A DNA stretch of 46,531 bases from Thermoproteota archaeon (lineage in GTDB: Archaea; Thermoproteota; Thermoprotei_A; Sulfolobales; Acidilobaceae), in the NCBI GenBank assembly GCA_030549835.1, contig JAUQQR010000008.1:1-46531 (forward strand), in the 5' to 3' direction. The translations under genes were made by a program, and so were the position numbers. Numbering within the stretch: the first letter of the stretch is position 1; each line of letters begins with the position of its first letter. Shown piece by piece: positions 36,363-40,948 of this stretch. Below the pieces are notes generated by a model. That model searched no databases and was not told the DNA's origin. It saw nothing but the letters and a program-made list of their open reading frames with translations.

Positions 36363-37682
36363 TTGGGGAGGTACTATATTGAGACTTACGGCTGTGCTCT
36401 CGCAGAATTTGATAGCTCTATAGCTGAGTCTAGGCTTGAAGAAGAGGGTTTCGCTAGAGTTAATAGTATTGATAATGCAGAGTATGTGGTAATCAATACT
36501 TGTGCTGTTAGACTAGATACAGAGCAGAGGATAGCTGAAAGACTACAATGGATTACTAGACAGTATCCTGATAAGAAGCTTATTATAACTGGATGCCTAG
36601 TTAAAGCTAGGCCAGGGCTAGTAGCTAGGCTAGCACCTAGAGCTAGTCTATTATCACCTCAGAATATTGATAAGATTACTGAAGCTATTAGAGCTCTAGA
36701 CCATGGATCTAAGATAGTACTACTTGAGGGTTCTAGAGATACTAGTACACTACCAGTACCTAAGCCTATAGATGCTACAGCTACAATAATGATACAGGAG
36801 GGTTGCCTAGGAGACTGTAGCTTCTGTATAACTAAGATAGCTAGGAGGCAAGTTAAAAGCTACCCCCCAAGACTAATAGTTGAGACTATAAGCAAGCTAT
36901 TAAATGCTGGTGTAGTAGAGATTAGACTAACAGGGTTAGATACAGCAGTCTACGGTGTAGACATACCAGGTAAGCCTACACTAGCAGACCTACTTAACAT
37001 TATACTAGATAAAGTTAAAGGAGAATATATGATAAGAGTAGGGATGATGACACCAGACCAAGCACTAGAGATAATAGATGACCTACTAGAAGTATATAGA
37101 GATAAGAGAGTATACAAATACTTCCACATACCAGTACAGAGTGGAGATAATAGAGTACTAAAACTAATGAATAGAAAATATACAGTAGAAGAATTCAAGC
37201 AACTACACTCAAAAATAAAATCAAAGTACCCAGAAGCACTAATAGCAACAGATATAATAGTAGGTCATCCAGGAGAAGATGAAGAAGCATTTAATAACAC
37301 AATTAAGTTAGTAGAAGAGTTAAAATTCGAGAAAATACACCTAGCACAGTATAGTATAAGGCCCCACACTAAATCAGCAGCCATGCCCCAAATACCCGAT
37401 AATATTAAAAAAGAGAGGAGCACTAAACTAGCAAAAATAATAGAAGAAATAGGATATAATATTATGAGTGAGTATAGAGGGAGAATAGTAGAAGCAGTAG
37501 TAACAGAAAGAGGCTATAGAGATGGAAGCCTAGTAGCAAGACTAGAAAACTATATACCAGTAATAATACAAGGTAATGGAATACTAGGAGCTCGAATTAA
37601 AGTTAAAATAGTAAATAATACATTCTTTGATTTAAGAGGAGAACTACTAGAATCAAGAATAATTAGAAAAGATCCCAATTAA
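36363..37682 (+). CDS. mtaB: tRNA-t6A37 methylthiotransferase (CDKAL1/MtaB type)
   Basis: Radical-SAM enzyme that adds a methylthio group to t6A37 of tRNA. The N-terminal UPF0004 domain keeps three cluster cysteines (C11, C47, C78), the radical-SAM motif is CLGDCSFC (C148, C152, C155), and the C-terminal 60 residues form a TRAM-like domain (RGRIVEAVVTERGYRDGS). 439 residues. TTG 36363 has AGGGTG upstream. This modification acts on the t6A made by KEOPS, whose Pcc1-like subunit is also in the window. Confidence 0.9.
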   Translation: MGRYYIETYGCALAEFDSSIAESRLEEEGFARVNSIDNAEYVVINTCAVRLDTEQRIAERLQWITRQYPDKKLIITGCLVKARPGLVARLAPRASLLSPQNIDKITEAIRALDHGSKIVLLEGSRDTSTLPVPKPIDATATIMIQEGCLGDCSFCITKIARRQVKSYPPRLIVETISKLLNAGVVEIRLTGLDTAVYGVDIPGKPTLADLLNIILDKVKGEYMIRVGMMTPDQALEIIDDLLEVYRDKRVYKYFHIPVQSGDNRVLKLMNRKYTVEEFKQLHSKIKSKYPEALIATDIIVGHPGEDEEAFNNTIKLVEELKFEKIHLAQYSIRPHTKSAAMPQIPDNIKKERSTKLAKIIEEIGYNIMSEYRGRIVEAVVTERGYRDGSLVARLENYIPVIIQGNGILGARIKVKIVNNTFFDLRGELLESRIIRKDPN

Positions 37683-37700
37683 TTATATGAATTATCGATG

Positions 37701-37865
37701 TTACTCTTCTTCCTCTTCTTCTAGCTCTTCTTCCTCTTCCCAGAACTCCTCTTCTTCCTCTTCCCATAGTTCTTCTTCATCGAATTCTTCCTCTTCCTCT
37801 TCTTCCTCTAGTTCTTCTTCCTCCCATTCTTCTTCCTCTTCCTCTACTCTCTTTCTTGCTACCAT
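37701..37865 (-). CDS. Hyperacidic Glu-rich mini-protein (54 aa)
   Basis: ATG 37865 opens MVARKRV, then blocks of Glu broken by single W, L, F and D residues to the TAA at 37701. By hand count 38 of 54 residues are Glu. Aromatic/aliphatic residues fall at W14, L19, F28, L33, W34, F41, W42, L48, that is, near multiples of 7 and 14. AGGTGA lies 5 bases before the ATG, and a TATA-like ATTTAAATAC lies further upstream (about 37911-37920). GAA and GAG are both used, which argues against simple repeat slippage. Function unknown; a nucleic-acid mimic or chaperone-like role is speculation. Confidence 0.7.
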   Translation of the reverse strand: MVARKRVEEEEEEWEEEELEEEEEEEEFDEEELWEEEEEEFWEEEEELEEEEEE

Positions 37866-37963
37866 AGTCTTCACCTATTTTTCTTCTTCAACTTTATGGC
37901 TTGTAATCTAAGGTATTTAAATATTTATTCTACTATATAGAATATTCTTGGGTATACTATTAT

Positions 37964-38854
37964 ATGGTTGAGTTTTATGAGTTAGGCGTTAGGGTTGGTT
38001 TTACTATTTCTTATTCTGAGTTAGAGTCTATTATTAGTTTATGTTCTAGTGGTTCTTCTGGCATTACTAGCTTAGATTTAGGCTTATCTAGTGTTTTTAT
38101 TGAGTTTTCTAATGGGTCTTGTAGGGTTTCTAGTAGCCTCTATAGCTATGTATTTAGTCTTAGTGATCTTAAGAGTCTCATTGAATCAGTTACTCCTAGA
38201 GATGTTATAGTATATGATGATTATAGGTTTATAGTTGCTGAGATTAGGGGTAGTAGGTTTTATAAGCTTGTTAGTATTAATAGTGGGGCTCCAACAGTTG
38301 AGATTAACGGTATTCATATGCATAGAGTTAAAGATATAAGCCCATGGATTGATGCTAAGCTTAAGGTTAGAGCTCTAGGCGTTAGTGGTGGTAGAGTCTT
38401 AGATATATGTACTGGGTTAGGCTATACAGCTATAAATTCCCTAGTTAGTGGTGCTAGAGAAGTATATACTATAGAGGTTGATGAGAATATTCTAACACTA
38501 GCATCTATGAATCCTTGGAGTGATAAGCTTAGGAGTAGTGAAATTAAGATTATATTAGGAGACGCTGTAGATGTTATTAGAGAATTTAGAGATAATAGTT
38601 TCAACTATATAATACATGACCCTCCAAGATTCACTAAGGAGACTGGAGAACTATATAGTACTAGATTCTATAGTGAGCTCTATAGAGTCTTAAAACCCGG
38701 AGGTAGACTATACCACTATACTGGAGAGCCTGGGAGAGTTAGAGGACTAAACTTCCCATCAAAAACCGCTTCAAAACTTAGAGATGTAGGATTCATAGTT
38801 AAGAGGTACGACCCCAGATCTCAGGGAGTCTTAGCATATAAGCCTAGGATTTAA
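37964..38854 (+). CDS. Spermidine-synthase-like/class I methyltransferase
   Basis: 296 residues in two parts: an N-terminal beta-rich region of about 125 residues not recognised, and a SAM-binding Rossmann domain with VLDICTGLGYTAINSLVSGA, VYTIEVDEN, IILGDAVDVIREF, YIIHDPPRFTKETG and LYRVLKPGGRLYHYTG. The NPPY-type motif is DPPR. The layout resembles spermidine synthase-like or MnmC-like proteins, but the substrate is undefined. ATG 37964. It converges on cdvC with 2 bases between stops. Confidence 0.75.
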   Translation: MVEFYELGVRVGFTISYSELESIISLCSSGSSGITSLDLGLSSVFIEFSNGSCRVSSSLYSYVFSLSDLKSLIESVTPRDVIVYDDYRFIVAEIRGSRFYKLVSINSGAPTVEINGIHMHRVKDISPWIDAKLKVRALGVSGGRVLDICTGLGYTAINSLVSGAREVYTIEVDENILTLASMNPWSDKLRSSEIKIILGDAVDVIREFRDNSFNYIIHDPPRFTKETGELYSTRFYSELYRVLKPGGRLYHYTGEPGRVRGLNFPSKTASKLRDVGFIVKRYDPRSQGVLAYKPRI

Positions 38855-38856
38855 TC

Positions 38857-40008
38857 CTAGACTGCTCCATATTTTGAAGTCCACTCCTCATACTTAGATA
38901 TTAATGCTTGATCTACACTAGGCTTCCTCTTCTCTAGTACAGTTATGAAATCTCTCATTGTTATTAGTCTAGGCTCTCCTACTCCTCCTCTCTCAAATAC
39001 TTCTCTAACTGTTATCATGTACGCGTCTTGTACTATATCTCTGATATCGCTACCAGAGTACCCGTCTAGTAGCTCGGCTAATCTATCTAAGTCTACGTCA
39101 TCTCCTAGCTTGAGCTTACTTGTTAGCATTTCTAGTAGTTGTTTTCTAGCTCTTTTATCAGGTAGTGGTACGTAGACTCTCTTCTGGAATCTCCTAAGGA
39201 ATGCTTCATCTAATCTCCAAGGCTTATTAGAAGCAGCTACTATATATAAATGTACTCTTAGCATCTTATCTAACATACCATCCATTTCTTTAAGGAACTG
39301 GTTCCTAACTCTAACTTCCCCGCCAACCTCTGCGTTATGGTAGCCTAGTAATGCATCAACTTCATCTATAAATATTACTACTGGTGTCTTTAATGCTCTA
39401 TCTCTTGCATAGCTAAATAGTCTCTTAACATTCTTCTCTCCTTCTCCAAGCCATTTACTCATAATACTAGCTGCGTCTACGTATAAGAACTCGGCATTAG
39501 CTTCATTAGCTGCAGCTATTCCAAGCATAGTCTTACCTGTCCCTGGGGGACCATATAATAGTATTCCTCTATGCCATCCTAGTGGGAATAAGTCTGGTCT
39601 CTTAACAGGGTATACTATAACTTCTCTTATAGCCTCTTTAGCATGCTCTAATCCAGCTATATCATTAAATGTAATATTAGGCTTCTCTCTCATAACATAA
39701 GGTGGTAGCTTCTCCTCCCCGCTACTCTTGGTTTCGACAACAATAACCTCATCATCACCACTACTAGCAGGCTCTAGTCTAAGCTTCTCTTCTAAATCTC
39801 TAAGCTTCCTCTTATACTGTCCTATAAGCCTCCTATAGATACTAGCTAGTGGATGGTCTGGGTAGTTTTTAACTAGGTCTTCTAGTAGCTCTATAGCTTT
39901 CCTAAGGTTTATTAATGCATTCTCATAGTCACCCTCACTCTCAGACTTAACAGCTGCTAATGCATACTTCCTAGCTGATCCCTCAAGGTAAGCTATAGGG
40001 TTACTCAT
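38857..40008 (-). CDS. cdvC: Vps4-like AAA ATPase of the Cdv division system
   Basis: Disassembles ESCRT-III polymers during division. An N-terminal MIT-type helical hairpin (about residues 5-75) is followed by the AAA domain with Walker A GPPGTGKT (about 153-160) and Walker B VIFIDEVDA (about 211-219), sensor-containing AASNKPWRLDEAF and the Vps4-like C-terminus. 383 residues. ATG 40008. It lies 43 bases downstream of cdvB; the two are the core of the archaeal ESCRT operon. Confidence 0.93.
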   Translation of the reverse strand: MSNPIAYLEGSARKYALAAVKSESEGDYENALINLRKAIELLEDLVKNYPDHPLASIYRRLIGQYKRKLRDLEEKLRLEPASSGDDEVIVVETKSSGEEKLPPYVMREKPNITFNDIAGLEHAKEAIREVIVYPVKRPDLFPLGWHRGILLYGPPGTGKTMLGIAAANEANAEFLYVDAASIMSKWLGEGEKNVKRLFSYARDRALKTPVVIFIDEVDALLGYHNAEVGGEVRVRNQFLKEMDGMLDKMLRVHLYIVAASNKPWRLDEAFLRRFQKRVYVPLPDKRARKQLLEMLTSKLKLGDDVDLDRLAELLDGYSGSDIRDIVQDAYMITVREVFERGGVGEPRLITMRDFITVLEKRKPSVDQALISKYEEWTSKYGAV

Positions 40009-40051
40009 ACTAGGATCCTCTCCAGAAATAAAAATTTTATGTGTATAGGGT

Positions 40052-40822
40052 TTAAGCTGTAGAAGCCTCAGCTTGTTTTCTATAAATCTTAACTAAACCT
40101 TTATCCTCTAGTTTTTCTAGAGTCCGCCATATATCTTCAGGCTTAACATTTAATTCTCTAGCAGCAATACTTATACTAATACTCCCACCTCTAGACCTAA
40201 TATATTCTAGAAGCTTCTCCTCTAGGCTATCTTCTAGTCTACTAGGCGTCTTAACTATCATTTCACTCTCCCTATTAGCCTCAGCTACAACTCTAGCAAT
40301 CTCCTGTCTAGCTTCAGGATCTAACTCTATAATCCTAGCTGAAGGCATATATGATGCTGTCATCTCAACACCTCTTATAACTCTCTCAGTAGCCTCTAGT
40401 AAGCTTGATAGCTTTAATGCAGTCTCTGGGCTAATAGTAGCTATATAGTCGTCTGTAGCCCTCATAACATACTCTAGAGGAGCTAAAACCTTAACTAGGG
40501 TATCAATATTCCTAGCATCATTAAGCCTCTGTATAGCAAGTGTTAATAGCTTACTATATGTTAGAATAGATGTTAAAACCTTCTTCTTAAGAACAATCTC
40601 TGTAGCAGTAAGCTCAAGAGTATCATTATCCTTATTCTTAGCCGCCTCAATCATCTTATCATAAAACCTATTAATCTCATCAATAAGCTGATTCTTAACC
40701 CTATCAACCTCCATCTTAGCAATTTGTAACTTAGCCATAACCTCATCGAAATCAACGCCCTCATTTAAACTCTTAGCTTTAGTACCTAAACCAAAAACCC
40801 TCCTAACAACATCTAAAACCAT
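40052..40822 (-). CDS. cdvB: ESCRT-III-like division protein CdvB
   Basis: Snf7-type helical protein of 256 residues that forms the constriction filament. The ESCRT-III core spans about residues 20-165 (long helices, charged). A Pro-containing segment (TPSRLEDSLEEKLL) may be the MIT-interacting part, and the C-terminus (SISIAARELNVKPEDIWRTL) is a broken winged helix, which in Sulfolobus binds CdvA. ATG 40822 has GGGGTG 8 bases upstream. CdvA is not seen here. Confidence 0.9.
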   Translation of the reverse strand: MVLDVVRRVFGLGTKAKSLNEGVDFDEVMAKLQIAKMEVDRVKNQLIDEINRFYDKMIEAAKNKDNDTLELTATEIVLKKKVLTSILTYSKLLTLAIQRLNDARNIDTLVKVLAPLEYVMRATDDYIATISPETALKLSSLLEATERVIRGVEMTASYMPSARIIELDPEARQEIARVVAEANRESEMIVKTPSRLEDSLEEKLLEYIRSRGGSISISIAARELNVKPEDIWRTLEKLEDKGLVKIYRKQAEASTA

Positions 40823-40948
40823 ACCATACACACCCCACAAACACTAACCATAGACACCCGAATCTAAATAGAATAAGATAGAGGGTTAGAGGAATAACAG
40901 GAAGTAACACACAGATAAGACTTAGGAAATACTATGATGAATAAATAA

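Follow-up and report, generated by a model that had tools for sequence, protein, structure and literature searches.

Comparison of orthologues shows that a minus-strand reading frame of 54 codons in an archaeon of the Acidilobaceae is a genuine protein-coding gene, with purifying selection acting on the amino-acid pattern of its product, and that Glu/aromatic microproteins of this type form a widespread and previously unclassified family of the Thermoproteota, a phylum of mostly heat-loving archaea. The gene (referred to here, with its relatives, as the E/W gene) lies in a stretch of 46,531 nucleotides (contig JAUQQR010000008.1; the window).

The E/W Gene of the Window and Its Relatives in the Genus

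The encoded protein (MVARKRVEEEEEEWEEEELEEEEEEEEFDEEELWEEEEEEFWEEEEELEEEEEE; Table 1) carries 38 Glu and one Asp among its 54 residues, so that the length and the glutamate content of about 70% given in the preliminary description agree with the translation. The start signals described there (an AGGTGA site with a 5-base spacer and a TATA-like element) were all located in the sequence upstream of the ATG, and a GTG codon in frame at 37874, also upstream of the ATG, would add MKT if used as start. Hydrophobic residues occupy positions 14, 19, 28, 33/34, 41/42 and 48; the spacing of 7 or 14 residues noted earlier is partly borne out (14-28-42 and 34-41-48). The AlphaFold model, a lone helix obtained with single-sequence input, says little.

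Table 1. Features of the E/W locus in the window (positions numbered from the first letter of the window).
Feature	Position	Strand	Remarks
Microprotein gene (E/W type)	37701..37865	-	54 aa, 70% Glu, basic N-terminus MVARKR
Shine-Dalgarno site AGGTGA	37871..37876	-	5-nt spacer before ATG; read from sequence
TATA-like box TTTAAATA, archaeal type	37914..37921	-	About 50 nt upstream of ATG; read from sequence
MtaB-type tRNA t6A methylthiotransferase	36363..37682	+	Convergent neighbour; Pfam/NCBIfam
SAM-dependent methyltransferase	37964..38854	+	Divergent neighbour

The stop codons of the E/W gene and of the convergent mtaB are 18 bp apart, and the E/W gene thus has no downstream cistron in the window. 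The methyltransferase gene on its other side adjoins the E-rich gene at most f1 loci examined (f-numbers are family labels of this analysis, not taxon names, and L-numbers denote loci). It is followed at 38857-40840 by a Vps4/CdvC-like ATPase and then a probable CdvB-like protein, a pair found near the E-rich gene at other f1 loci as well.

MtaB is present in 5/5 other species of the genus (65–72% identity), and a Glu-rich ORF convergent to mtaB was found in all five. The proteins start with M(V/T)A(R/K)(R/K)x or MA(R/K)(R/K)x, continue as Glu runs split by W, F, Y or L, and are preceded by TATA-like boxes at similar positions in 6/6 genus members. The preliminary description had proposed a search in relatives for the same ORF between mtaB and the methyltransferase gene, with a lack of frame-preserved orthologues in close relatives as the outcome that would speak against it; the ORF was found with its frame preserved in 6/6 genus members, and orthologues of preserved frame occur family-wide.

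Selection on the Protein and Its Reading Frame

Codons were compared in one congeneric pair per genus from 28 genera, giving 264 synonymous and 47 nonsynonymous differences (85% synonymous), whereas simulated neutral change gave 14–23% synonymous. The alignment of low-complexity tracts is biased to identity, and ungapped pairs give the same picture (16 synonymous and 0 nonsynonymous differences between L067 and L068). What is constrained is a pattern of runs of approximately 3–8 Glu broken by Trp, WW, Phe, Tyr or Leu. The mixed use of both Glu codons remarked on at the outset extends to the family (GAA 1591, GAG 1544), and the suggestion that selection acts on the protein rather than through repeat expansion gains strong support from the orthologues and from the excess of synonymous changes.

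Since GAA/GAG changes are silent in the opposite Ser frame too, the boundaries of both frames were examined at 98 distinct loci. In the Glu frame, an ATG lies at most 12 codons from the tract at 83 loci and a stop follows directly or one residue after the tract at all 98; some members probably start at GTG or TTG. The corresponding values for the Ser frame are 11/98 for an ATG within 12 codons and 5/98 for a stop within 3 codons. The Ser ORF that overlaps the E/W ORF on the plus strand of the window is a shadow of the Glu frame, as had been supposed.

The same comparison bears on the idea that the tract is a microsatellite without function or a feature confined to the DNA or RNA, for which the low-complexity GAR repeats could be cited. 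Given that start and stop codons bound the tract, that synonymous turnover keeps the Trp/Glu pattern and that the promoter is conserved, this idea has a negligible probability and was rejected on the orthologue comparison.

Distribution and Composition of the Family

The degenerate WEEEEEE pattern occurs in 92/197 genomes and 40/74 genera of the order of the window (Sulfolobales), and a relaxed W-E pattern in 127/197 genomes, whereas a reversed control pattern matched only sparsely. Among the matches listed for the relaxed pattern, most cluster at one place per genome, and at the loci read individually nearly all order-level matches lie within small ORFs (e.g., MRWLVLEEEEEWWEEEEEEEEWWEEEEEEEEWEEEEW, MIFEEEEDLWEEEEDWDEEEEDLWEEEEEEW and MVVYFEEEWWEEEEEEWEEEEEWWEEEEEW). 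Most families of the order contain E/W-rich ORFs of about 20–90 aa, and similar ones are found in other classes of Thermoproteota; Ignisphaera, Pyrodictium and Zestosphaera are carriers among the named contigs. The gene is missing in most sampled f11 genera, in f6 and in parts of f1 and f9, and the pattern search did not find it in f15 or f51; some lineages have lost it. Bacterial matches in the genome-wide scan look like chance WWEEEEE inside unrelated ORFs, and five matches in viral contigs all lie inside longer ORFs; neither group was retained as E/W microproteins. In one genome (G159, C7:30828 and C45:15098) E-rich pattern matches adjoin two mtaB copies, reflecting duplication or contamination.

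Over 132 distinct tracts the composition is 78% E, 16% W, 1.5% F and 1.5% L. Family-wide, the spacing of the hydrophobic residues is broadly periodic at about 7 residues (z = 9.4); a 3.6-residue periodicity, looked for in the same set, was not found. An amphipathic-helix face was therefore rejected, and stickers on a charged chain are the preferred description. The C-terminal residue is W in 92 of the 132, E in 23 and F in 12; a C-terminal Trp as universal signal was discarded, since members from the genus of the window mostly end in another residue.

No Pfam, NCBIfam or PADLOC family was found for the peptide, and a model may be missing because annotation and similarity searching mask or discard genes that are so short and low in complexity. 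Neither a PDB sequence search, run with an E/W relative as query, nor a Foldseek search with the AlphaFold model gave matches, and the strings EEEWWEEEE and WEEEEEW retrieved no papers in the open-access literature; an earlier description elsewhere is possible. LysW amino-group carrier proteins have an acidic EDWGE motif at the C-terminus, and two f33 loci fuse a LysW-like zinc ribbon (PF21344) to an E/W tail (L217, 1474-1749, minus strand; L218, 1297-1578, plus strand, the latter above the PF21344 cut-off). Both lie near a TldD-like gene, not near lysine genes. Unlike LysW, nearly all E/W members have no zinc ribbon; the CPxCG type is absent from the window protein and present only in L217 and L218.

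Linkage to ABCE1 and t6A Genes

ABCE1, a universal archaeal factor and the usual neighbour of the E/W gene, was identified by Fer4_RLI and Fer4 Pfam matches together with homology. It lies downstream of the E/W gene on the same strand in ten families spanning several classes (f2, f3, f7, f10, f14, f16, f18, f20, f24 and f43), immediately next to it or, in f16 and f43, with TFS between the two genes, and in an eleventh family (f9) the E/W gene adjoins TFS-ABCE1 in inverted orientation. About 10 families, that of the window included, show no such linkage. In the genome of the window ABCE1 is on a different contig with no E/W ORF adjoining it, and by gene order the E/W gene of this genus has left the ABCE1 neighbourhood.

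The upstream position could suggest a cis-acting leader peptide, whose poly-acidic nascent chain would destabilise the ribosome as in MgtL, report splitting status and control the downstream ABCE1. Early poly-acidic codons, the place upstream of ABCE1 and an own TATA box fit this reading, and in bacteria acidic residues early in the nascent chain are documented to destabilise the ribosome (PMC11282234). Where it is linked to ABCE1, the E/W gene resembles MgtL-type leaders in being a short acidic ORF placed ahead of another gene; it differs in also standing alone and in an E/W pattern conserved through Trp spacing. A leader would fit the ABCE1-linked families only, because no ABCE1 lies downstream in the genus of the window and in many families, and the window gene, next to a convergent stop, has no regulated cistron after it at all, such a position being found only in other families. 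Moreover, the distance to ABCE1 varies (about 46–407 nt) and the gene is kept at new loci under protein-level selection; we regard the leader function as unlikely.

Other neighbours recur. In the order, profile matches to solved Cgi121 structures assign the usual upstream gene to the Cgi121 (KEOPS) family; in f16 and f43 the E/W gene and a Sua5/YrdC gene are divergently oriented, and in f1 mtaB is the neighbour. Three different t6A tRNA modification genes thus adjoin the E/W gene in different lineages. This t6A-pathway neighbourhood, counted after the fact, is a lead. These Cgi121 proteins of the order, which are divergent in sequence (k8/k9/k1-type genes, e.g., at L120, L075 and L058), are unrecognised by Pfam at E<=0.05 and match Cgi121 structures by profile, and at L051 a ThiS/Urm1 domain is apparently fused to a Cgi121-like protein.

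ABCE1 being an Fe-S protein and MtaB a radical-SAM enzyme, the peptide might serve as an adaptor that delivers Fe-S clusters to ABCE1 (and MtaB) via a C-terminal acidic-Trp tail (cf. Lto1/Yae1 and CIA targeting tails). The terminal W or F of most members would suit such a role, whereas the genus of the window mostly has no terminal W and these archaea are not known to have CIA targeting proteins; this is a very improbable explanation.

Proposed Function

The preliminary description had suggested mimicry of nucleic acid or binding to basic proteins, metals or the ribosome, and among these the linkage to ABCE1 favours ribosome binding. As no cistron follows the window gene, which is nevertheless constrained at the protein level, its product presumably acts in trans. 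Our tentative first choice is an accessory of ABCE1 or of the small subunit that works in the manner of the eIF3j/Hcr1 acidic-Trp motif. Strongly anionic and carrying aromatic stickers at regular intervals, the peptide would bind ABCE1, the ATPase of ribosome recycling, or the small-subunit complex under it; its Trp side chains would insert into hydrophobic pockets surrounded by Lys/Arg, and it would assist or tune subunit splitting or ABCE1 release in a mode comparable, without homology, to that of the eIF3j/Hcr1 N-terminus.

This reading is favoured because the eIF3j acidic motif is the closest working model and belongs to an ABCE1-assisting factor. In eIF3j, Trp52 of the acidic motif occupies a hydrophobic pocket on eIF3b-RRM, with contributions from its acidic neighbours, and binding is no longer detectable after W52A or charge reversal (PMC2824034); eIF3j/Hcr1 is described as a helper of ABCE1 in the discussion of PMC7196836. 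Both systems place Trp among acidic residues, a role filled by Trp, Phe and Leu in the window protein. On the other hand, eIF3j/Hcr1 is eukaryotic, has one to a few Trp within a larger protein that includes a folded domain, and is tied to ABCE1 functionally, whereas the tie of the E/W family is genomic linkage; the folded domain and a homologous sequence are absent from the E/W peptides, which consist almost only of Glu and aromatics over their length of about 20–90 aa and have no Pfam match. Against an ABCE1 accessory stand the families with unlinked E/W genes, the lineages without the gene that presumably keep ABCE1, and the fact that neighbouring genes may be regulated together without contact between their products.

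Next in order comes a general acidic chaperone or nucleic-acid mimic shielding basic proteins (ribosomal, or Alba/Cren7-type chromatin), a possibility we would give somewhat less credence. Aromatic residues serve as anchors in eukaryotic acidic histone chaperones and would do so here; the very high negative charge with spaced aromatics, the presence of eS17, thermosome, TFS and ABCE1 in the neighbourhoods and a variable gene context, suited to a general role, are all consistent with it. Linkage to ABCE1 would then be co-expression with translation genes, which leaves its persistence across classes unexplained.

The tail of the archaeal and eukaryotic ribosomal stalk (aP1/P1/P2) binds translation factors; it is Glu-rich with hydrophobic residues at the terminus, the anchor being a short terminal Leu/Phe motif. 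The E/W peptide, likewise Glu-rich with hydrophobic anchors, might be a soluble mimic of the aP1 tail competing for stalk-binding factors including ABCE1, on which the stalk is reported to act, by the title of Imai 2018 as cited in PMC6791870. However, the stalk tail is attached to a ribosomal protein with a single terminal anchor, whereas the E/W peptides have aromatics distributed over their length and a variable terminal residue; the aP1 N-terminal dimerisation domain is absent from the 54-aa protein by Pfam, and such mimicry appears improbable.

Conclusion and Perspectives

As conserved gene products go, a protein of essentially two residue kinds, usually single-copy and strongly constrained across a phylum, is very simple. 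Returning to the ABCE1 accessory, a wider formulation, possible and rather doubtful in our estimation, is that of an archaeal ribosome-recycling cofactor of a new class: a multivalent peptide of Glu and aromatics, ancestral in Thermoproteota, working with ABCE1 as a functional counterpart of the acidic-Trp part of eIF3j. The linkage to ABCE1 points to an unrecognised archaeal ribosome recycling factor, and the family would offer a test of how specificity is encoded by nothing more than a sequence pattern, here aromatic stickers along an anionic chain.
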